64,000 nt of DNA from Polynucleobacter sp. MWH-Jannik1A5 (GTDB lineage Bacteria > Pseudomonadota > Gammaproteobacteria > Burkholderiales > Burkholderiaceae): positions 345,275 through 409,274 of the forward strand of contig NZ_JACVPQ010000001.1 of assembly GCF_018881795.1 (NCBI RefSeq). The letters are read 5' to 3'. Under the pieces are notes generated by a model, which searched no databases, had not been told where the DNA came from, and saw only the letters and a list, made by a program, of their open reading frames with translations. Position numbers and translations under genes: made by a program. Below, in pieces: positions 13,954 through 22,024 of the stretch (the stretch's first letter is position 1; each line of letters begins with the position of its first letter).

Positions 13954-14277
13954 TTAGCCAGTTGACTTAGCAATAAAGAATGCTTTTGGTACTGGAGTGC
14001 ACCACACGACACCATCACCCACTTGGCCCGTCTGACATACTGTGACGATACGATCCATAAGTACTTCAGCAGCTTCATCATTGCAAATAATCTCTACTCT
14101 CACTTTTGCTGAGTAGTCAGTTAACTCATCTTTGATATTCGCCTTACTGGTTTTTGAAGGCGCGCTACAGCCCTCTACCTTAGTAACTGTCATCCCCGGA
14201 AACCCAGGAGTCTCCATGAGAGCTGTTCTGAGAGCAGGTAATTTATTTGGGCGAATCACCGCCTTGACTTCCATCAT
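13954..14277 (-). CDS. PII-like protein of a metal-efflux operon (PII-NG type)
   Basis: 107 aa with the GlnB/PII fold: MMEVKAVIRPNKLPALRTAL at the N-terminus and the B-loop/C-terminal CQTGQVGDGVVWCTPVPKAF. The T-loop lacks the GlnB uridylylation Tyr context and contains CSAPSKTSKANIK instead. Its ATG overlaps the RND pump stop by 4 bp, so it is the last gene of the efflux operon. A PII subgroup encoded beside CusA/CzcA-type pumps is described (PII-NG). Its ligand and partner are unknown; control of pump activity is inferred. Confidence 0.85.
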   Translation of the reverse strand: MMEVKAVIRPNKLPALRTALMETPGFPGMTVTKVEGCSAPSKTSKANIKDELTDYSAKVRVEIICNDEAAEVLMDRIVTVCQTGQVGDGVVWCTPVPKAFFIAKSTG

Positions 14278-17200
14278 GCTTCCACCTCTTTATCTTCAAA
14301 CCATCTATACAGGACAGGCAATACCAATAAGGTCAAGGCTGTTGAGGTAATTAAACCTGCAATTACCACGGCCGCCAAGGGTCGAGTCACCTCTGAACCA
14401 GGGCCTCCAGAAAACAGCATAGGAACCAGCGCAAGCATTGCTACTGAAGCCGTCATCATGACTGGTCTAAAGCGATGACCGCAACCATGAAGCAAAGCAT
14501 CTTCCATGCTGTATCCGTCTTCACGCAGCTGCTTAATAAAGGAGATCAAGACTACGCCATTAAGCACAGCGATACCCCATAAATTAATAAATCCTACCGC
14601 CGCTGGAACCGATAAATACTCGCCAGTAATAAACAAACCAAATACACCGCCAATCGATGCAAATGGCAGAACCAAAATAATGAGGCCCGCCAAACGTATC
14701 GACTTAAACAACATAAATAACAAGAAGAATATTGCCAAGACCGTTAAAGGAATGATGATCATGAGGCGTGCCATCGCTCTTTGCATGTTTTCAAACTGAC
14801 CACCCCATTGCAAGGTATAACCCTGGGGCAATTCCACATTCTTCGCAATCAACTCTTGAGCTTCTTTTACAAAGCCGCCCAAATCACGACCCTCAACGTT
14901 CACACCCACTACAAGGCGACGTCTACCGGACTCGCGAGAGATTTGGGCCGGGCCTTCTACCAAGGTCACTTCAGCCAAGTCTCGCATCAATACCTGTGCC
15001 CCGTCAGGTGAATGCAAAATAATATTTTCGATTGCATCTATATTATTTCTATAGGAACTCGGGTAGCGCAGTACCAAGGGGAAGCGACGCTCTCCCTCGT
15101 AAATAGTGCTGGCCTGCTTACCGCCAATTGCCGTTTCAATCACTTCATTCACATCTGAAACATTAATGCCATAGCGTGCAATCGCATCACGATCAATTTT
15201 GATGTTGAGATAGTTTTGACCAGAGGCTTGCTCAATACGTAAATCGTTACTACCTTTCATCTTGGTCAAGATTTGACCAATTTGCGAGCCCAGCTTTTGC
15301 AAGACAGGCAGCTCATCACCAAAGATTTTGACCGCTACTTGCGAGCGCACACCAGATACCATCTCATCCACCCTAGCTGCAATCGGCTGAGAAATTGCTA
15401 ACTCAATTCCGGGTAAAGTTTTGAGTTTTTCACGAATTTGTTGTGCAATTTCTTCCTGGCTCAGATCTCGATCACCTAAAGGTTTGAGTGTCACGATTGG
15501 GTCTGATTCATTTGGCTGACCCGGATCTGCTGGTGACTCGCCTTTACCCAGTCGAGATACCGCCATCTCTACACCAGGAATAGTCATGATGCGTTTAATT
15601 GCCTCAAACTCTAATTTAATAGACTCGTCTAAAGAAATATTGGGCGCACGGACAATCACTGGCGTAATGGAGCCTTCTTGCATCACCGGAATAAATGCTT
15701 TACCAAGCAATACAAATCCAACCATGCTAATACCTAGTGCAATGATGGCGCGTTTGACTACTAATTTAGGATTTGCCAAACACCAATGCAACCAGCGCTC
15801 ATATGGTGCGCGCATTTTTTTGACGATCTTCGTATCGTCCTCGCCACCACCCTTCAAAATATAGGAGCACAGGACTGGCGACAGTGTGAATGACAGAATC
15901 AAAGAGATGGTTAAGGCGATAGCAATCGTAATCGCCATCGGTGCAAACATCTTGCCTTCCATACCCTCAAGCGAAAGTAGCGGCATAAAGACCAAAATAA
16001 TGATGCCAACACCAAAGAGCACCGGTTTACCAACTTCAGATGCCGCTTCCAAGATGATCCTGTTTTTGGATTCGCCGCTTTTGAGACGCTCGCCTAATTC
16101 GGCAAACGTGTTTTCTACAACCACGACAGAGCCGTCCACCATAATGCCAATCGCGATGGCAAGACCACCCAAAGACATCAAGTTTGCTGAAATACCATAG
16201 CGATTCATCACCAAAAAGGTTAATAGTGGCGTCAGCAGCAAGGTGGCAACCACAATTAGTGATGAGCGCACATCCCCCAGGAAGAGGAAAAGCAAAATAA
16301 TGACCAGAATGACGCCTTCAACCAAAACTTTTGCCACATTAAACATGGCGGCATTAACTAAATCTGTGCGGTCATAGAAAGGCACAATCTGCAAGCCATC
16401 TGGCAACAGCTTACCTTCGTTAATTTCTTCAACCTTGAGCTTGATGCGATTCACTACATCTCTTGCATTACCACCACGAATCATCTGGATAATGCCGGCA
16501 ACACTTTCGGTATAACCATTCTTAATGGCAGCACCCTGACGAATCTCGCTGCCAATCGTAACTTCAGCCACGTTCCTCACGTATACCGGAATACCTTTCA
16601 CTTCTTTCAGAATAATCTTGCCAATATCTTCTGGCTTAGTAATCAGACCTAAACCACGAATGAGGTAACGCTCTGCATATGTTGGTAACTGACCACCACC
16701 AGAGTTGGCGTTATTTCTTGCAAGCGCTTGATAAACCTCTTGCAAACTAATTTGATAATGGCGTAAGCGCTCAGGATTCACCAATACTTGATATTCTCTG
16801 GCATAACCACCTTGCGTATTAATTTCAGCCACCCCAGGAATAGAGCGGAGCATCGGACGCACAATCCAATCTTGTACAGCACGGCGATCAGAAAGCTCAT
16901 CCACCGATAACTCACGATGACGATCTGATGGGTGATCTAAAGTGTACTGATATACCTCACCTAGACCTGTGGATGGAGGGGCTAAAACAGGCGTGATGCC
17001 AACTGGCATTTTGGAGGCCACTTCAATCAGTCGCTCTGTTACTAATTGACGGGCAAAGTAAATATCAGTTTTTTCTGTAAATACTAAAGTAATAACAGAG
17101 AGGCCATTGCGGTTTAAAGAACGCATTTCTGTTAAACCTGGTAAACCAGTCATCGCTAATTCAACTGGAATTGTGACAAAGCGCTCTACCTCTTCTGGCG

Positions 17201-17369
17201 ATTTTCCTGGAGCCTCAGCAGCCACCTGAACCTGTACGTTGGTGACATCCGGAAATGCATCAACGGACAATCGTTTAGTAGCTAATAGTCCAGCAACAAG
17301 CAATACGATGGCAATAATGACCACCAATAAGCGCTGCTGTAACGAGAGACGAACAATTCTTTCAATCAT
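14274..17369 (-). CDS. Heavy-metal efflux RND transporter, CzcA/CusA family
   Basis: 1031 aa, full length for an HME-RND inner-membrane pump with 12 transmembrane helices and two large periplasmic loops. The helix-4 proton-relay motif reads AIGIMVDGSVVVVEN (near residue 400). It lacks the DFG of CzcA-type zinc/cobalt pumps and the DAA of CusA. The pore-domain segment PVMQEGSITPVIVRAPN lacks the CusA methionines, so copper/silver is unlikely. The leader of the operon is a manganese riboswitch, so Mn2+ or a metal encountered with it is a reasonable guess, not shown. It sits 4 bp downstream of the fusion-protein gene. Confidence 0.92.
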   Translation of the reverse strand: MIERIVRLSLQQRLLVVIIAIVLLVAGLLATKRLSVDAFPDVTNVQVQVAAEAPGKSPEEVERFVTIPVELAMTGLPGLTEMRSLNRNGLSVITLVFTEKTDIYFARQLVTERLIEVASKMPVGITPVLAPPSTGLGEVYQYTLDHPSDRHRELSVDELSDRRAVQDWIVRPMLRSIPGVAEINTQGGYAREYQVLVNPERLRHYQISLQEVYQALARNNANSGGGQLPTYAERYLIRGLGLITKPEDIGKIILKEVKGIPVYVRNVAEVTIGSEIRQGAAIKNGYTESVAGIIQMIRGGNARDVVNRIKLKVEEINEGKLLPDGLQIVPFYDRTDLVNAAMFNVAKVLVEGVILVIILLFLFLGDVRSSLIVVATLLLTPLLTFLVMNRYGISANLMSLGGLAIAIGIMVDGSVVVVENTFAELGERLKSGESKNRIILEAASEVGKPVLFGVGIIILVFMPLLSLEGMEGKMFAPMAITIAIALTISLILSFTLSPVLCSYILKGGGEDDTKIVKKMRAPYERWLHWCLANPKLVVKRAIIALGISMVGFVLLGKAFIPVMQEGSITPVIVRAPNISLDESIKLEFEAIKRIMTIPGVEMAVSRLGKGESPADPGQPNESDPIVTLKPLGDRDLSQEEIAQQIREKLKTLPGIELAISQPIAARVDEMVSGVRSQVAVKIFGDELPVLQKLGSQIGQILTKMKGSNDLRIEQASGQNYLNIKIDRDAIARYGINVSDVNEVIETAIGGKQASTIYEGERRFPLVLRYPSSYRNNIDAIENIILHSPDGAQVLMRDLAEVTLVEGPAQISRESGRRRLVVGVNVEGRDLGGFVKEAQELIAKNVELPQGYTLQWGGQFENMQRAMARLMIIIPLTVLAIFFLLFMLFKSIRLAGLIILVLPFASIGGVFGLFITGEYLSVPAAVGFINLWGIAVLNGVVLISFIKQLREDGYSMEDALLHGCGHRFRPVMMTASVAMLALVPMLFSGGPGSEVTRPLAAVVIAGLITSTALTLLVLPVLYRWFEDKEVEA

Positions 17370-17373
17370 TTAC

Positions 17374-18720
17374 TTATCCGCCACTAAGCTGACGCTTACG
17401 CTCTGTGTTTAAGTGATAAGCACCTTCAATAGCAATCTCTTGGCCTTCTTTGAGTCCTGAAATCACAGGGCGATAGCCTTTGCCTTCTGGACCAAGCTTA
17501 ACGGGGACCATGCGATAAGTATCATCATCTAGCCTCACGAAAACGTGATCATGATTATCTTCGCGAACAATAGCGCCCAAAGGCACTACTAATTTATCCA
17601 CCGGCTGACTCTCAATCAACATGGTTGCCAACATGCCAGGTTTAATTTGCCCTTCTTTATTTGCCAGCTCCATCCGTACCACCACAGTACGGGTTTGTGG
17701 ATTAACAATCGAATCTACATGAGCGACCACACCTTCAATATCTTGATTGCGCAGCGCTGGAATAATGACAGAAGCTTTTTGACCCTTACGGATTAAATAT
17801 GAATTACTTTCTGGCACCTCAGAGATTGCCCAGAGCGAGCTGAGATCAGCAACGGTAAATAAGGCGTCAGCAGGTTGCACTACCTGACCTTTATTAATCT
17901 TGCGCTCTACAATTTCTCCAGGAATTGTGGCAATCACATTATTAATAGATTCAATCACACCCGATTTAGCAAGTCGGTCGATGCTTGCTTGATCCATGCC
18001 CTGCACTCGCAATTGATCATTGGCGGCACGGAACTCTGCTTTGGCGCTACTCGCCTCAGCTTCACGCCTTTGCAACTCAGCCAGAGCAATCACGTCCTCT
18101 TTATAAAGAATTTTTGCACGATTGGCAGCTTGATCAGCCAGCTGACTGGCGCTCTTCGCTTTCAAATACGAAAGTTGCGACTGAGTCAATTCAGTAGAGG
18201 TAATTTTTGCCAAGATATCGCCCTGCTTCACGATCTGACCAGGTACGGCCAGAATCTCTGAAACTCGGCCAGTAACGTTAGCGCCAATTCGAGAAAGATA
18301 GAGCTCATTAAAATCAATTCGACCTGAGGCGCGCAACTCCTCAACAAATGGAGACACTTGAGCTTTGCCGTCCGTAATCATCTTATGCAAATCTTCATTG
18401 ACGATAACCACATTGGGATCTTGCACAGATTTAATGGCGGGACTTCTATCAAATACGTTGAAGTAATTTAGAACAATGATGAATGCGCAGAACCAAGGCA
18501 GATAAAACAACCCACTTTTAAACCATGATGGGGATTTGTCATAGCGACCAGTAATAGCAGGCACATGCTCGCCAAGCCATTGATGGGCCTGAGCATATAG
18601 CTGGTTTTGGGTCTGAATAACTTGGCCGAATAATTCCTTTGAGTGGAATTTAATCTTTCGGACCAAAAAGGTTTTCCAGACCTTGATCTTTTTCAGAATC
18701 GCCGCTAACTCTTGGTTCAT
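17374..18720 (-). CDS. Membrane fusion (periplasmic adaptor) protein of the RND pump
   Basis: 448 aa, HlyD/CzcB type. The start is the ATG at 18720 overlapping the preceding stop (ATGA); the longer frame to 18750 is inside that gene. One N-terminal transmembrane helix (SGLFYLPWFCAFIIVLNYF) is preceded by an unusually long cytoplasmic segment of about 65 residues. A lipoyl/barrel-sandwich half-motif GRVSEILAVPGQIVKQGDIL and a coiled-coil hairpin (SQLADQAANRAKIL...RREAEASSAKAEF) follow, then beta-barrel and membrane-proximal domains ending EGAYHLNTERKRQL. No His-rich metal-binding N-domain is seen. Confidence 0.9.
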   Translation of the reverse strand: MNQELAAILKKIKVWKTFLVRKIKFHSKELFGQVIQTQNQLYAQAHQWLGEHVPAITGRYDKSPSWFKSGLFYLPWFCAFIIVLNYFNVFDRSPAIKSVQDPNVVIVNEDLHKMITDGKAQVSPFVEELRASGRIDFNELYLSRIGANVTGRVSEILAVPGQIVKQGDILAKITSTELTQSQLSYLKAKSASQLADQAANRAKILYKEDVIALAELQRREAEASSAKAEFRAANDQLRVQGMDQASIDRLAKSGVIESINNVIATIPGEIVERKINKGQVVQPADALFTVADLSSLWAISEVPESNSYLIRKGQKASVIIPALRNQDIEGVVAHVDSIVNPQTRTVVVRMELANKEGQIKPGMLATMLIESQPVDKLVVPLGAIVREDNHDHVFVRLDDDTYRMVPVKLGPEGKGYRPVISGLKEGQEIAIEGAYHLNTERKRQLSGG

Positions 18721-19982
18721 TGCATTCCACTTTCTATCTTCGCAAGCCACTCAGGACTTGCTCTTAATCTTTGGATCTCAGTGACTACAGAAGCTAAATC
18801 AAAACGTGCCTTAATCAAATCATTTCGTGCCGCCCGAAAGGTTCTTTGGGCATCCAAATACTCCAACATGCCGCGCTCACCATAGCGATAAGACACCTCA
18901 GCAATCCTTTGCGCACTGCCCGCCAACTGCACTACTTCCTGACTTAAAACTTTTACTTGGTAGCTAGTCATTTGATATAGCTTGTAAGCCGTTTCCATCT
19001 GCTGATCCAAGGTTTGGCTTTGCGCATTCAATTGATTTTTAGCTTTGGAAGCATTTGCTTCTGCCTCAGCAATCTGTCCACCCTTGAAGTCCCAAATCGG
19101 AATGCTTACTTGCAAACCATAGAGACGATCAGTAAAGTTTGGGTCATTGTATTGAGAGGCTTTGAAAGCTAAACGAGGTAAGCGAGAATTTTTTTCAAAG
19201 CTCAACTTAGACTCGGAAGCCTCTACTTCTGCTTTTGCCTTTTGCAGTTCTGGGCTCTGGCTTTGAACCTCATTCAATAGCTGAGTTAGTGAAGGCAACA
19301 CCTCAGGCTTTGGTTGCTCTGCTATCACCGTGTAATCTGCAGGCAACTGATGACCCACCGCTTGGCGCAATTGACTACGAGCCTGCTCTACCCGCAACTT
19401 ACTAGACTCCGCTGTAATTTGTGCGTTAAGAAATTCAGTTTGCACCCGAATCAATTCAAAGCGCGCTGTCTCACCAACGTCATACCGAATTTGCATACGA
19501 TCCCGAATCTGCTTCGTGAGACTCATATCTTCTTCTGCGGCTTTTTGCTCTGCTTCACGGCGCATTAATTCATAAAAGCGCTGTTGAACTCTGGAAATCG
19601 TCTCGACCTCAAATGCAACACGTGTTGCCTCGGCTGCGCGTAAATTTGCTTCCGCTGCATTCACTCGAGGGAAGCGGGTGTAAGGCATATCCAATGGCTG
19701 AGTAACCGCCCATGAAGACACGCTGCCTACTGTCAAAGGGCCCGTAGCGGATCTTTGCTGACCAGTACTGATCTCAAACTCTGGGTTTGGGATGGCTCTT
19801 GCAGTAGATAACTGTCCTTTAATCGCCTTGGACTGATCTCGGGCAGCCAAGACTTGAGGGCTGGACTCTAAAGAGATGGAAATCAAGTCGTTAATAGTGA
19901 ATGACTTTTTAGATTGTGCGCTGACATTTGCCACCATCAGGGTGCTAACAAAAGCAATCGCTATCCATCGGTACCGCGTCAT
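18717..19982 (-). CDS. Outer-membrane factor (TolC/CzcC family) of the RND pump
   Basis: 421 aa from the ATG at 19982, which gives a clean signal peptide (MTRYRWIAIAFVSTLMVANVSAQS). A longer frame starting at a TTG at 20114 would lack one and overlap the leader. Two TolC-type repeats of long helices are rich in Ala/Gln/Glu (AAEANLRAAEATR, QRIAEVSYRYGERGMLEYLDAQR). It is the first gene of the efflux operon. The riboswitch and a roughly 150-nt further leader lie upstream. Confidence 0.88.
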   Translation of the reverse strand: MTRYRWIAIAFVSTLMVANVSAQSKKSFTINDLISISLESSPQVLAARDQSKAIKGQLSTARAIPNPEFEISTGQQRSATGPLTVGSVSSWAVTQPLDMPYTRFPRVNAAEANLRAAEATRVAFEVETISRVQQRFYELMRREAEQKAAEEDMSLTKQIRDRMQIRYDVGETARFELIRVQTEFLNAQITAESSKLRVEQARSQLRQAVGHQLPADYTVIAEQPKPEVLPSLTQLLNEVQSQSPELQKAKAEVEASESKLSFEKNSRLPRLAFKASQYNDPNFTDRLYGLQVSIPIWDFKGGQIAEAEANASKAKNQLNAQSQTLDQQMETAYKLYQMTSYQVKVLSQEVVQLAGSAQRIAEVSYRYGERGMLEYLDAQRTFRAARNDLIKARFDLASVVTEIQRLRASPEWLAKIESGMQ

Positions 19983-20048
19983 ACGCCCAACTTGCAAAGA
20001 GTCTAAACGCAAATTATCCAACCACCCATGTGGAAGAGCAAGGAAATG

Positions 20049-20063
20049 GCCCCAATTTGGGGC
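20049..20063 (-). promoter_or_regulatory. Leader hairpin GCCCCAAATTGGGGC
   Basis: A 15-nt near-perfect palindrome in the leader between riboswitch and first efflux gene, about 67 nt before the ATG. No T-run follows on the minus strand, so it is not a standard terminator. It could protect or gate the mRNA. Confidence 0.35.
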
Positions 20064-20121
20064 GCAAGAGTGCAAAACAATGCCAGAACGAAAGATTTTG
20101 AGATGGAAAGTCAATATTTAG

Positions 20122-20143
20122 CCATTTAGAAAATAGTAAATGG
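20122..20143 (-). promoter_or_regulatory. Hairpin competing with riboswitch P1 (candidate expression platform)
   Basis: On the minus strand CCATTTA-ctattttc-TAAATGG forms a perfect 7-bp hairpin. Its 5' arm is the same sequence (ACCATTTA) that would form the 3' strand of the aptamer's P1 helix. Aptamer closure and this hairpin are therefore mutually exclusive. No U-run follows directly, so how it controls expression is unclear. Confidence 0.45.
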
Positions 20144-20240
20144 TCTTGCCTTAAAAATTACTCACATACCGGGCTTGAAGGCCGTAATGACGATATGTGA
20201 GACCCATTGCTGGGCAGGCTACTCCCCGTTTATTCATCTT
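20136..20240 (-). promoter_or_regulatory. yybP-ykoY manganese riboswitch
   Basis: On the minus strand the order is GGGGAGTAGC (20227-20218), a first hairpin region, the helix CTCACATA (20201-20194), the loop element CGTCATTACG, then CCCGG, the helix partner TATGTGAG (20168-20161), and finally GCAAGACC (20149-20142). These match, in order and spacing, the conserved parts of the Mn2+-sensing yybP-ykoY aptamer (GGGGAGUAGC, CGUCA loop, CCGG, GCAAGACC closing P1). The riboswitch leads into the RND efflux operon that begins at 19982. The assignment is from memory of the consensus; a covariance-model search would settle it. Confidence 0.9.
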
Positions 20241-20276
20241 ATTAGATCACAGTTAGCAATAACACTCTGTTCGCAC

Positions 20277-20609
20277 TCACGCATACACATGGTTAGAGAG
20301 GCGACCATATTTTTGAGCCTTATGAAGCGCTTTTTGCATGTGCTTATAAACCTTCTTTAAGCCCATCTCTAGCGCAGTTCTTCGGTCTCTGGCGGTAAAG
20401 CTCACCTCTATCTGACGATTATCAAAAGTTTGCAATTCAATAATGCAGTTTTGATTACAGCCTGTTTTTGCCTGGGCCACAGAGGAATACTTCACTTTAA
20501 TTTTTCGCACCAACCAAAAGAGTCGCTTGAGAGAAAATTTCACGCGATTCTCAGTGAAGGTTTTGAATTCTGGCTCGATTTGTTCTTTTGCTTCCAATAT
20601 GACATTCAT
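20277..20609 (-). CDS. HPF/RaiA-like ribosome-associated protein
   Basis: 110 aa, highly basic. The beta-alpha-beta-beta-beta-alpha layout with IIELQTFDNRQIEVSFTARDRRTALEMGLKKVYKHMQK resembles the sigma-54 modulation / ribosome hibernation factor family, though the N-terminus is divergent. A clear AGGAGA Shine-Dalgarno precedes the ATG at 20609. It lies between the terC-usp gene (separated by a terminator) and the riboswitch. A stress role is plausible; direct ribosome binding is inferred from the family. Confidence 0.65.
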   Translation of the reverse strand: MNVILEAKEQIEPEFKTFTENRVKFSLKRLFWLVRKIKVKYSSVAQAKTGCNQNCIIELQTFDNRQIEVSFTARDRRTALEMGLKKVYKHMQKALHKAQKYGRLSNHVYA

Positions 20610-20767: not shown

Positions 20768-22024
20768 CTAGTCAATCACAGCTGCCATTAAGGCAGTTGC
20801 TGCACCCGCCCCTAAGGCAGGGATGCCCCAACGCTCGAGCGTAGATAAAGACTTGCCAGTCACTACCTCAACAGGAATATCACTGATTTCCAGTAATTTT
20901 GCTGTCGTCGAGTTTTCAAATAAGCGGCTGAGCGTATTTTTCTTAGAGGTTCCAATCACAATTCGATTGCAATCTAAGCGCTGCGCTTCATCTCGTAAAG
21001 CCTCTCCCTTATCGCCAGTCACATATGTAAAGGAGAAATTCACGCCTGCTTTTTCTAGAAATTCGGATGCTGACTTCGCCGCAGTTTTAGCGCGCTCTGC
21101 TTGCCACTCGTTGATTGTTTGCTTACTCAAAAACTTACGTATGTGCGTATACAGGGTAGGCTGCACATTACAGATATGAAACTGTGTTTGACGATCGTTG
21201 CCATACATGTTCACCGCATGTTTTATGGCCATCAAAGCATTATTCGAATCATCAACCGGGATGAGAACTTTATTCATTACTTCACCTCCTACGTTATTAG
21301 ACTGCTTATCGGATACTTCTGTATCAACTACAGCTGGCGCAATTGTCTCCTCCAACGCCAACCTACTCTTCATGAAACCACCAAACAAAACACCAAATAT
21401 CACAAGGGCTTGGACGGCATACCCAAATGCAGGGTTTTGGAATAACTGCATTTCCTTAACTATCGGCTCTGACATCATCATTTTGGCCGCAGTCCATGCC
21501 AATACGCCAGCACCTATATAAGTGATCGATGGATAGCGTTCAACCAACTTCAGAATTTGTGTTGAACCCCAAATTACGATTGGAATACTAATGAGCAAAC
21601 CTAATACAACCAATACATAGCTACCATGAGAGGCGCCAGCCACAGCCAAGACGTTATCTAGACCCATAACTGCATCAGCAATCACAATGGTCTTCATTGC
21701 ACCCCAAAAACTAGTAGAGGCATTGTTATGACCACCATCTTCATCTTTTGCAGGGGTTAGAAGCTTGTAAGCAATCCACACTAGGAGCAGGCCACCAATC
21801 AACATCAAGCCCGGTATCTTAAGTAGATACACCACTACCAGCGTCATTGCGCTTCTCACTGCAATTGCACCAACCGCTCCCCAGACAATCGCTTTCTTTT
21901 GCAAATGGGCTGGCAAATTTCTGGCGGCCATCGCAATGACGATAGCGTTATCGCCAGCCAATACCAAATCAATCACCACAATTGCTAGTAGTGCCGAAAA
22001 AAACTCAGGGCTAAATAGTTCCAA
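20768..22024 (-). CDS. TerC-family membrane protein fused to a UspA domain
   Basis: 418 aa from a TTG codon at 22024 with AGAGGT 6 nt upstream. Residues 1-225 are a TerC/YjbE-type integral membrane domain with the paired acidic motifs VLAGDNAIVIA and VMGLDNVLAVAG. After a linker (about 226-250) a universal-stress domain begins (NKVLIPVDDSNNALMAIKHAV) and runs to about 390, ending IPVEVVTG. A last hydrophobic stretch (IPALGAGAATALMAAVID) may be a further membrane helix. TerC proteins are linked to Mn2+ export and metalation of exported proteins. The fusion suggests a stress-sensing cytoplasmic domain attached to the exporter. Confidence 0.85.
   Translation of the reverse strand: MELFSPEFFSALLAIVVIDLVLAGDNAIVIAMAARNLPAHLQKKAIVWGAVGAIAVRSAMTLVVVYLLKIPGLMLIGGLLLVWIAYKLLTPAKDEDGGHNNASTSFWGAMKTIVIADAVMGLDNVLAVAGASHGSYVLVVLGLLISIPIVIWGSTQILKLVERYPSITYIGAGVLAWTAAKMMMSEPIVKEMQLFQNPAFGYAVQALVIFGVLFGGFMKSRLALEETIAPAVVDTEVSDKQSNNVGGEVMNKVLIPVDDSNNALMAIKHAVNMYGNDRQTQFHICNVQPTLYTHIRKFLSKQTINEWQAERAKTAAKSASEFLEKAGVNFSFTYVTGDKGEALRDEAQRLDCNRIVIGTSKKNTLSRLFENSTTAKLLEISDIPVEVVTGKSLSTLERWGIPALGAGAATALMAAVID

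Follow-up and report, generated by a model that had tools for sequence, protein, structure and literature searches.

Known targets of the Mn2+ riboswitch class yybP-ykoY (Rfam RF00080) are genes encoding MntP, TerC/Alx, P-type ATPases and UPF0016 proteins, and the manganese exporters known with this riboswitch act at the inner membrane. We analyzed a 64,000-nt stretch of the genome of Polynucleobacter sp. MWH-Jannik1A5 (contig NZ_JACVPQ010000001.1, positions 345,275–409,274; the whole stretch is referred to as the window, and positions given below are its own), in which an element of this class precedes an operon encoding an outer membrane factor (OMF), a membrane fusion protein (MFP), a heavy metal efflux permease of the resistance-nodulation-cell division family (HME-RND) and a PII-family regulator. 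In the betaproteobacterium Herbaspirillum seropedicae, a yybP-ykoY element is located before mntP (PMC7011215).

HME-RND pumps have been divided into classes annotated for Co/Zn/Cd, Co/Ni, divalent cations, monovalent cations, Cu/Ag or Ni, none of which names Mn in the excerpted text (PMC7060636). PII genes located beside such pumps form a described group, PII-NG (PMC7726332); a first-pass annotation of the window had proposed that a trans-envelope Mn efflux pump with a PII-type regulator would be a new kind of system, but a PII gene beside such a pump has a precedent. The PII-NG-CzcABC operon of Geobacter sulfurreducens (GSU2134–2137) resembles that of the window in containing a PII gene and an HME-RND pump, but its PII gene comes first and it responds to Co2+ and Fe limitation (PMC7726332). 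The word “riboswitch” is absent from the text of this article as excerpted. A search of titles and opening parts of abstracts found no publication linking a Mn riboswitch with an RND pump, although most subscription journals were outside this search, so that absence from print is not established.

We consider it probable that, in freshwater Polynucleobacter, a Mn2+-sensing yybP-ykoY leader switches on a co-transcribed OMF-MFP-RND-PII operon at high Mn2+, and that the pump is a trans-envelope Mn2+ exporter. The leader (20249–20122, minus strand), located between an open reading frame (ORF) of 110 aa and the OMF gene, contains the yybP-ykoY core, with the following features in order:

20136..20237, minus: yybP-ykoY (Mn2+) riboswitch aptamer, P4-less variant (RF00080, 24.3 bits; covariation over 20 sequences; model R1)
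about 20232–20226/20143–20137, minus: helix P1
20227–20218, minus: conserved block GGGGAGTAGC
minus: loop L1, GGAGTA
20219–20216 (GCCT)/20151–20148 (AGGC), minus: helix P2
20214–20203, minus: helix P2a, CCCA/TGGG
20201–20194 (CTCACATA)/20168–20161 (TATGTGAG), minus: helix P3, 8 bp
20192–20188, minus: loop L3, CGTCA
20183–20181 (GGC)/20174–20172 (GCC), minus: helix P3.1
20172–20169, minus: conserved block CCGG
20149–20142, minus: conserved block GCAAGACC

The helix names are those used for yybP-ykoY structures. The element thus shares L1 (GGGGAGTAGC...GCAAGACC), L3 (CGTCA), CCGG and helices P1, P2, P2a, P3 and P3.1 with RF00080, as revealed by sequence, alignment and pair counts; the blocks and the 8-bp P3 helix named in the first-pass annotation were all found in place. 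It differs from RF00080 in the absence of P4, and its target, an RND operon, is outside the list of targets given above.

A permissive local search with RF00080, a check proposed in the first-pass annotation, detected the element along the full length of the model (20113–20239, minus strand; 24.3 bits, E 4.8e-5), and in the whole genome (1,998,283 bases) the same site was the sole match at E <= 10 (E 8.0e-5). Four of 200 shuffled sequences folded as well as the window leader. Since the score is below the curated 45 bits, the element is described here as a divergent, P4-less relative of the class on its other features, and not as a member by the Rfam threshold. The low score may be due to the missing P4, since the model expects a long stem where the window leader has a short A/T-rich linker after P3. 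By eye, most leaders of the Polynucleobacter alignment described below (n = 20) likewise have no P4; three of them (L074–L076; L and G numbers denote loci and genomes, respectively) contain a short P4 (GGAC-ATA-GTCC), and several loci outside the genus have fuller, P4-like stems. The gathering threshold alone was rejected as proof of absence, since permissive searches, a genus-specific model and covariation recover the element.

The leader of the window was aligned with those of 19 of the 26 other genomes bearing the OMF gene (n = 20); no GGGAGTAG core was seen in the loci of the remaining seven. The structure composed of P1, P2, P2a, P3 and P3.1 was paired in 92.7% of cells, compared to 87.2% in shuffled alignments, and pairing dropped to 44% or less when the structure was slid along the alignment. 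Changes on both sides were observed in 9 pairs (6.3 in shuffles; 4 of 500 shuffles as high) and in 39 cells (12.7 in shuffles; none of 500 as high), while the number of further pair types did not exceed that of shuffles (24 vs 23.5). The covariation is carried by P2a, P3 and P3.1, with P2 nearly invariant; L3 reads CGACA rather than CGTCA in three leaders (L062, L068 and L071). These compensatory changes demonstrate, at the level of sequence comparison, that selection maintains the RNA structure of the element. Judged by its sequence and covariation, the leader element is a riboswitch of the yybP-ykoY class, which upholds the original assignment.

The distribution of the element was examined in 145 Polynucleobacter genomes (at least 90% complete) using R1, a model built from the 20 aligned leaders. 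R1 matched 66 of these genomes and the RND permease was detected (E <= 1e-250) in 70, in 60 of which the element immediately precedes the OMF gene of the pump operon. Eighteen of the 60 belong to the R1 training set and 42 do not; one match (G257) is weak (26 bits). For 30 of the 60 operons, where the retrieved locus stops within the operon, linkage was established by coordinates; in all 30, the element and the permease gene share contig and strand, with the permease 2.7–3.3 kb downstream. No R1 match at E <= 0.01 was found in eight pump-bearing genomes (G201, G220, G252, G256, G281, G292, G300 and G313), and two others (G224 and G234) have a match elsewhere, before TerC. By eye, the TGTGATCTAAT promoter is kept and the aptamer gone at L246 (G292), and L247 (G300) retains a damaged 3′ portion of the aptamer; these remnants suggest that the element was lost secondarily in such genomes. 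Four genomes have an R1 match and no permease match: the element precedes TerC in G127, G222 and G259, and the OMF gene is in pieces in G213. In total, an R1-type element precedes TerC in five genomes of the genus (confirmed by Pfam for L161, recognized by sequence likeness in the other four).

When R1 was applied to 399 genomes of the order, matches were obtained in 19, 16 of them outside Polynucleobacter. At 12 of these 16 loci the following gene encodes TerC (L227, L228 and L242), MntP (L229, L236, L239 and L240) or GDT1/UPF0016 (L231, L232, L233, L238 and L241); Pfam was run on L229, L230, L240 and the TerC of L243. In one genome (G716; L228, extended as L243), the element is followed by TerC-OMF-MFP-RND on one strand, with an RND protein 67% identical to that of the window. 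A search of public genomes with this protein as query yielded 484 related loci, of which 80 were kept. R1 matched 27 of them at E <= 1: 22 from Polynucleobacter or Polynucleobacter-like genomes, and L252 (Quisquiliibacterium transsilvanicum), L253, L259, L279 and L327, at 21–31 bits. L260, L262 and L298, whose cores were read by eye, were added with a motif script. Thus, the element occurs at nine loci outside the genus, immediately upstream of the OMF gene in five (L252, L253, L260, L279 and L327) and with TerC or a fusion of TerC with a universal stress protein domain (TerC-Usp) between element and pump in four (L243, L259, L262 and L298). With RF00080 at E <= 1, L243 (33.4 bits), L252 (25.6), L253 (39.9) and L279 (29.5) were matched; L327 was searched at the gathering threshold only. 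The riboswitch-RND arrangement, a search for which had been suggested in the first-pass annotation, is therefore found in 60 of the 70 Polynucleobacter genomes with the pump and at nine loci elsewhere.

In a tree of 57 RND proteins the riboswitch-headed pumps are scattered over several distinct branches (at minimum 9 changes, with starred branches forcing 8), a pattern that may reflect gain on more than one occasion or, alternatively, an ancient association that was lost many times. The labels of L260, L262 and L298 in this tree come from the motif script and inspection by eye rather than from a model match, and “none” labels include contigs without leader sequence (L254, L269, L270 and L274). 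The 18 loci of the nearest family homologs outside the genus (62–64% RND identity; group g3 without and g24 with PII) gave no R1 match, nor did RF00080 at the gathering threshold match any of the 12 loci scanned among them. A loose scan for the core in 41 of the 80 loci gave one doubtful match (L258); upstream DNA was short in several of the 41 (L254, L256, L268, L312, L320, L323 and L326), for L266, L272, L273 and L313 the upstream point was chosen manually or placed at the MFP gene, and ten of the 80 were left out (L269, L270, L274, L296, L299, L307, L308, L316, L319 and L329), most being without upstream DNA. The g3/g24 loci and the loose scan rule out that the riboswitch is a feature of the pump subfamily as a whole. 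In a control, RF00080 matched 162 of 200 family genomes; at the 30 best-scoring loci the next ORF resembles GDT1/UPF0016 or a Na/Ca exchanger (Pfam was run on three), and no OMF, MFP or RND relative was present at any of these 30. Pump alone and element alone are both common, and their combination is specific.

Analysis of ORFs and family profiles indicated that the operon has the order OMF-MFP-RND-PII on the minus strand, as proposed in the first-pass annotation, with the following genes:

18717..19982, minus: OMF, TolC/CzcC type (PF02321, 2.6e-42; start at ATG 19982)
17374..18750, minus: MFP, CzcB/CusB type (PF16576, 3.3e-55; TIGR01730 above cut-off; ORF overlaps the end of OMF)
14274..17369, minus: HME-RND permease, 1031 aa (PF00873, 5.6e-292; TIGR00914, 1112.5 bits against a cut-off of 701)
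13954..14277, minus: PII-family regulator, PII-NG-like, 107 aa (PF00543, 1.4e-14)

The PII gene overlaps the RND stop codon by 4 bases. The OMF most likely starts at ATG 19982, which gives a signal peptide (by eye) and hence a 5′ untranslated region of about 250 nt; TTG 20114 was rejected, since this frame crosses the leader and would bury the signal peptide inside the protein (by eye).

Assignment of the permease to the HME-RND family is based on the TIGR00914 match and on a motif with acidic residues in transmembrane helix 4 (TMH4; AIGIMVDGSVVVVEN, residues 406–420). Its closest solved structures, aligned over nearly their full length, are ZneA (4k0e, E 2.2e-199) and CusA (3k07, E 2.2e-182). 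The three methionines of the CusA (HME4) site, which we take to be Met573, Met623 and Met672, align with V571, E621 and E669 of the window permease, which thus lacks this site. Across the 25 rows compared, E669 is invariant and E621 is replaced once (D in L312), in pumps with or without the riboswitch; glutamates at these positions would suit a harder ion. The TMH4 of ZneA reads DFG-VDG-MEN and that of the window permease AIG-VDG-VEN. Pumps of the CzcA/CnrA type (HME1/2) have DFG-DGA-VEN (PMC3637150), to which the AIG-VDGS-VEN of the window does not conform. The pump is accordingly not a standard CzcA or CusA, in agreement with the first-pass annotation, and its nearest named relative is HmyA.

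The nearest named homologs in a plasmid collection are encoded by Cupriavidus replicons, including those of strain CH34 (63–64% RND identity), and the RND tree places the Cupriavidus-like pumps on another branch than that of the window. The HmyCBA system of Cupriavidus metallidurans CH34 (HME3b, Rmet_4119–4123) shares 63% RND identity and the order OMF-MFP-RND with the window operon. The CH34 homolog is most likely HmyA, since a transposase-like minus-strand ORF (by eye) in the MFP-RND gap of its locus (L332) is consistent with the IS1088 insertion that separates hmyB from hmyA (PMC2864759). HmyA is an HME3b protein whose role is described as unknown, of a class predicted for monovalent cations (PMC7060636). 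The 12 Cupriavidus-like (g3) loci, unlike the window operon, have neither an R1 nor a PII match. Genes for PII-domain proteins adjoin HME-RND pumps in Polynucleobacter and at 27 non-Polynucleobacter loci among the 80. A contig filed as a Thermoflexus (Chloroflexota) metagenome-assembled genome (L286, CALPOM020000029.1) carries a Polynucleobacter-type pump operon with 88% RND identity and is probably mis-binned.

Three further elements were recognized in and around the leader:

20241..20249, minus: extended −10 promoter element TGATCTAAT (conservation in 20 leaders)
20122..20143, minus: candidate expression platform, hairpin CCATTTA-CTATTTTC-TAAATGG (pairing and folding energy)
20013..20041, minus: possible second promoter TTGCTC-17-GATAAT, downstream of the aptamer (motif conservation)

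The extended −10 element has the form TGATCTAAT in 16 of the 20 leaders, 12–15 bases before GGGG, and the variants TGTTTTAAT in three (17 bases) and ATGCTAAT in one (10 bases). Since it ends 10–17 bases before GGGG, transcription should begin at the aptamer, and a start at about position 20234, just before it, is expected. A consensus promoter scan of the leader found no full −35/−10 pair.

The 5′ arm of the hairpin is the 3′ strand of P1, which makes the two structures mutually exclusive. In the window its folding energy is −6.2 kcal/mol, reached by none of 200 shuffled sequences, and a strong P1-competing hairpin is present in 19 of the 20 Polynucleobacter leaders and in L243, while in the other eight outside loci it is not clearly above shuffles (33 to 278 of 500 as good). 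As a candidate expression platform, it may act as a terminator, expose Rho sites or mask the start. A clear T-run follows the hairpin only in L074–L076 among the Polynucleobacter leaders (by eye). A scan for intrinsic terminators in the window gave only GCCCCAAATTGGGGC at 20063–20049, not the hairpin overlapping P1. In many leaders a second pairing, GCCCCAA...TTGGGG, is kept between the aptamer and the OMF start (20063–20049, minus strand, in the window), with very different loop lengths (by eye).

Mn2+ reportedly docks loops L1 and L3 in published yybP-ykoY structures. In the proposed mechanism, high cytosolic Mn2+ would act in this way and stabilize P1, and the 3′ strand CCATTTA would then be withheld from the competing downstream hairpin, so that expression of OMF-MFP-RND-PII would rise. 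The RND complex would then export Mn2+ through the outer membrane, probably drawing on periplasmic Mn2+ supplied by inner-membrane exporters (GDT1/UPF0016, TerC), with the PII-NG-like protein as a cytosolic regulator of the pump. We infer the ligand and the ON direction from exporter-linked elements: an R1-type element precedes TerC in five genomes of the genus and TerC, MntP or GDT1 follow 12 of the 16 order-wide matches, and ligand and logic plausibly carry over.

Several observations weigh against this interpretation. At the RF00080 gathering threshold there is no match within the 64-kb window and none of the nine outside loci reaches the required score; even at E <= 1 the model misses L259, L260, L262 and L298. 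Outside its two G-C pairs, pairing in P1 is poor (79% of cells), and no position of this helix shows a change on both sides. In the window the hairpin is not followed by a T-run and would be a poor intrinsic terminator. Four of the 16 order-wide matches (L230, L234, L235 and L237) precede a gene for a LysR-type regulator and not an exporter. Some of the 60 element-headed operons are decayed, with stops inside the RND gene in G094, G269 and G272 and a match confined to residues 1–856 in G273. A GDT1/UPF0016 gene is present in 141 of the 145 Polynucleobacter genomes, which rules out that the RND pump replaces UPF0016. Finally, close relatives of the pump without the element occur in Cupriavidus-like genomes, Nitrosospira, Zoogloea, Curvibacter and others; since such relatives are common, the pump subfamily is not bound to the riboswitch.

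These riboswitch-less relatives carry the same putative site residues as the window permease, which also bears on an alternative that we consider unlikely but worth weighing, namely that the riboswitch is real and Mn2+-responsive and the pump mainly exports another divalent ion (Fe2+, Co2+, Zn2+ or Ni2+) or a compound troublesome at high Mn. It would agree with HME classes none of which, as excerpted, is annotated for Mn by name (PMC7060636), and with the induction of the Geobacter PII-NG-czcABC operon by Co2+ and Fe limitation (PMC7726332). However, the same riboswitch class otherwise heads MntP, GDT1 and TerC genes in our material, and TerC is encoded in the same gene run as the pump at four loci.

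Much less probable is that the element is a relic or a minor control left from TerC, in which case most pump transcripts would arise at the GATAAT start or by read-through of the TerC-Usp unit. GATAAT is found about 129 bases past the aptamer AGACC in 14 of the 20 leaders, which also counts against strict riboswitch control, and in some riboswitch-less loci (L247, L248 and L078), and TerC adjoins the riboswitch in related arrangements. This element, whose −35 part is variable by eye, may be a second, riboswitch-independent start, and riboswitch control of the operon may therefore not be exclusive. Against a relic stand the compensatory changes, which point to selection on the structure, the presence of the element in 60 of 70 pump genomes and the conserved extended −10 right before the aptamer; moreover, at L065 and L074–L076, which have no GATAAT, no more than about 60 bases separate the aptamer from the likely pump start codon (by eye). 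A chance resemblance to yybP-ykoY, for which only the score below the curated cut-off could be cited, is hardly credible in view of the whole-genome E of 8e-5, the covariation in 20 leaders and the repeated occurrence ahead of this operon in distinct lineages.

The neighborhood upstream of the operon contains one further gene of interest:

20768..22024, minus: TerC (YjbE type)-Usp fusion, separate upstream unit (PF03741, 1.2e-49; PF00582, 3.1e-18; TIGR03717 above cut-off)

A TerC fusion close to the operon had been noted in the first-pass annotation; it does lie upstream, but as a separate unit. Between it and the riboswitch is the 110-aa ORF (20277–20609, minus strand), which is conserved and neighbors the operon in many Polynucleobacter genomes; it has no Pfam or NCBIfam match.

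Other loci with elements of this class were recorded. In two Polynucleobacter genomes (L007 and L008; G074 and G094), an extra high-scoring Mn riboswitch precedes GDT1/UPF0016, besides that of the RND operon (decaying in G094). About twelve high-scoring RF00080 elements of the family (L002 and about eleven of L002–L031) precede a Na+/Ca2+ exchanger gene (PF01699 on L002, the remainder judged by sequence similarity), whose product may also export Mn. Mn-riboswitch-like elements are located directly before genes for LysR-type regulators at L175 (8144–8038, minus strand), L230, L234, L235, L237 and L249–L251; at L249–L251 this gene diverges from a TerC-Usp fusion 57–64% identical to that of the window. 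A metal riboswitch on a transcription factor beside TerC is worth a separate look. Since divergent, P4-less riboswitches fall below the Rfam cut-off, the regulon of the class is probably undercounted.

Returning to the proposed Mn2+ export system, we tentatively suggest a two-stage relay under one Mn2+ riboswitch, in which TerC (or GDT1) would carry Mn2+ from the cytoplasm to the periplasm and the HME-RND pump across the outer membrane, with gating by PII-NG according to nucleotide or metal state. If true, this would be, to our knowledge, the first Mn-dedicated RND system as well as the first case of a metal riboswitch controlling an RND pump, found in several Burkholderiales lineages. An orphan HME-RND branch close to Hmy (HME3b) could then be given a candidate substrate, PII-NG regulators would gain a testable role, and Gram-negative bacteria would also have a trans-envelope route for Mn2+.

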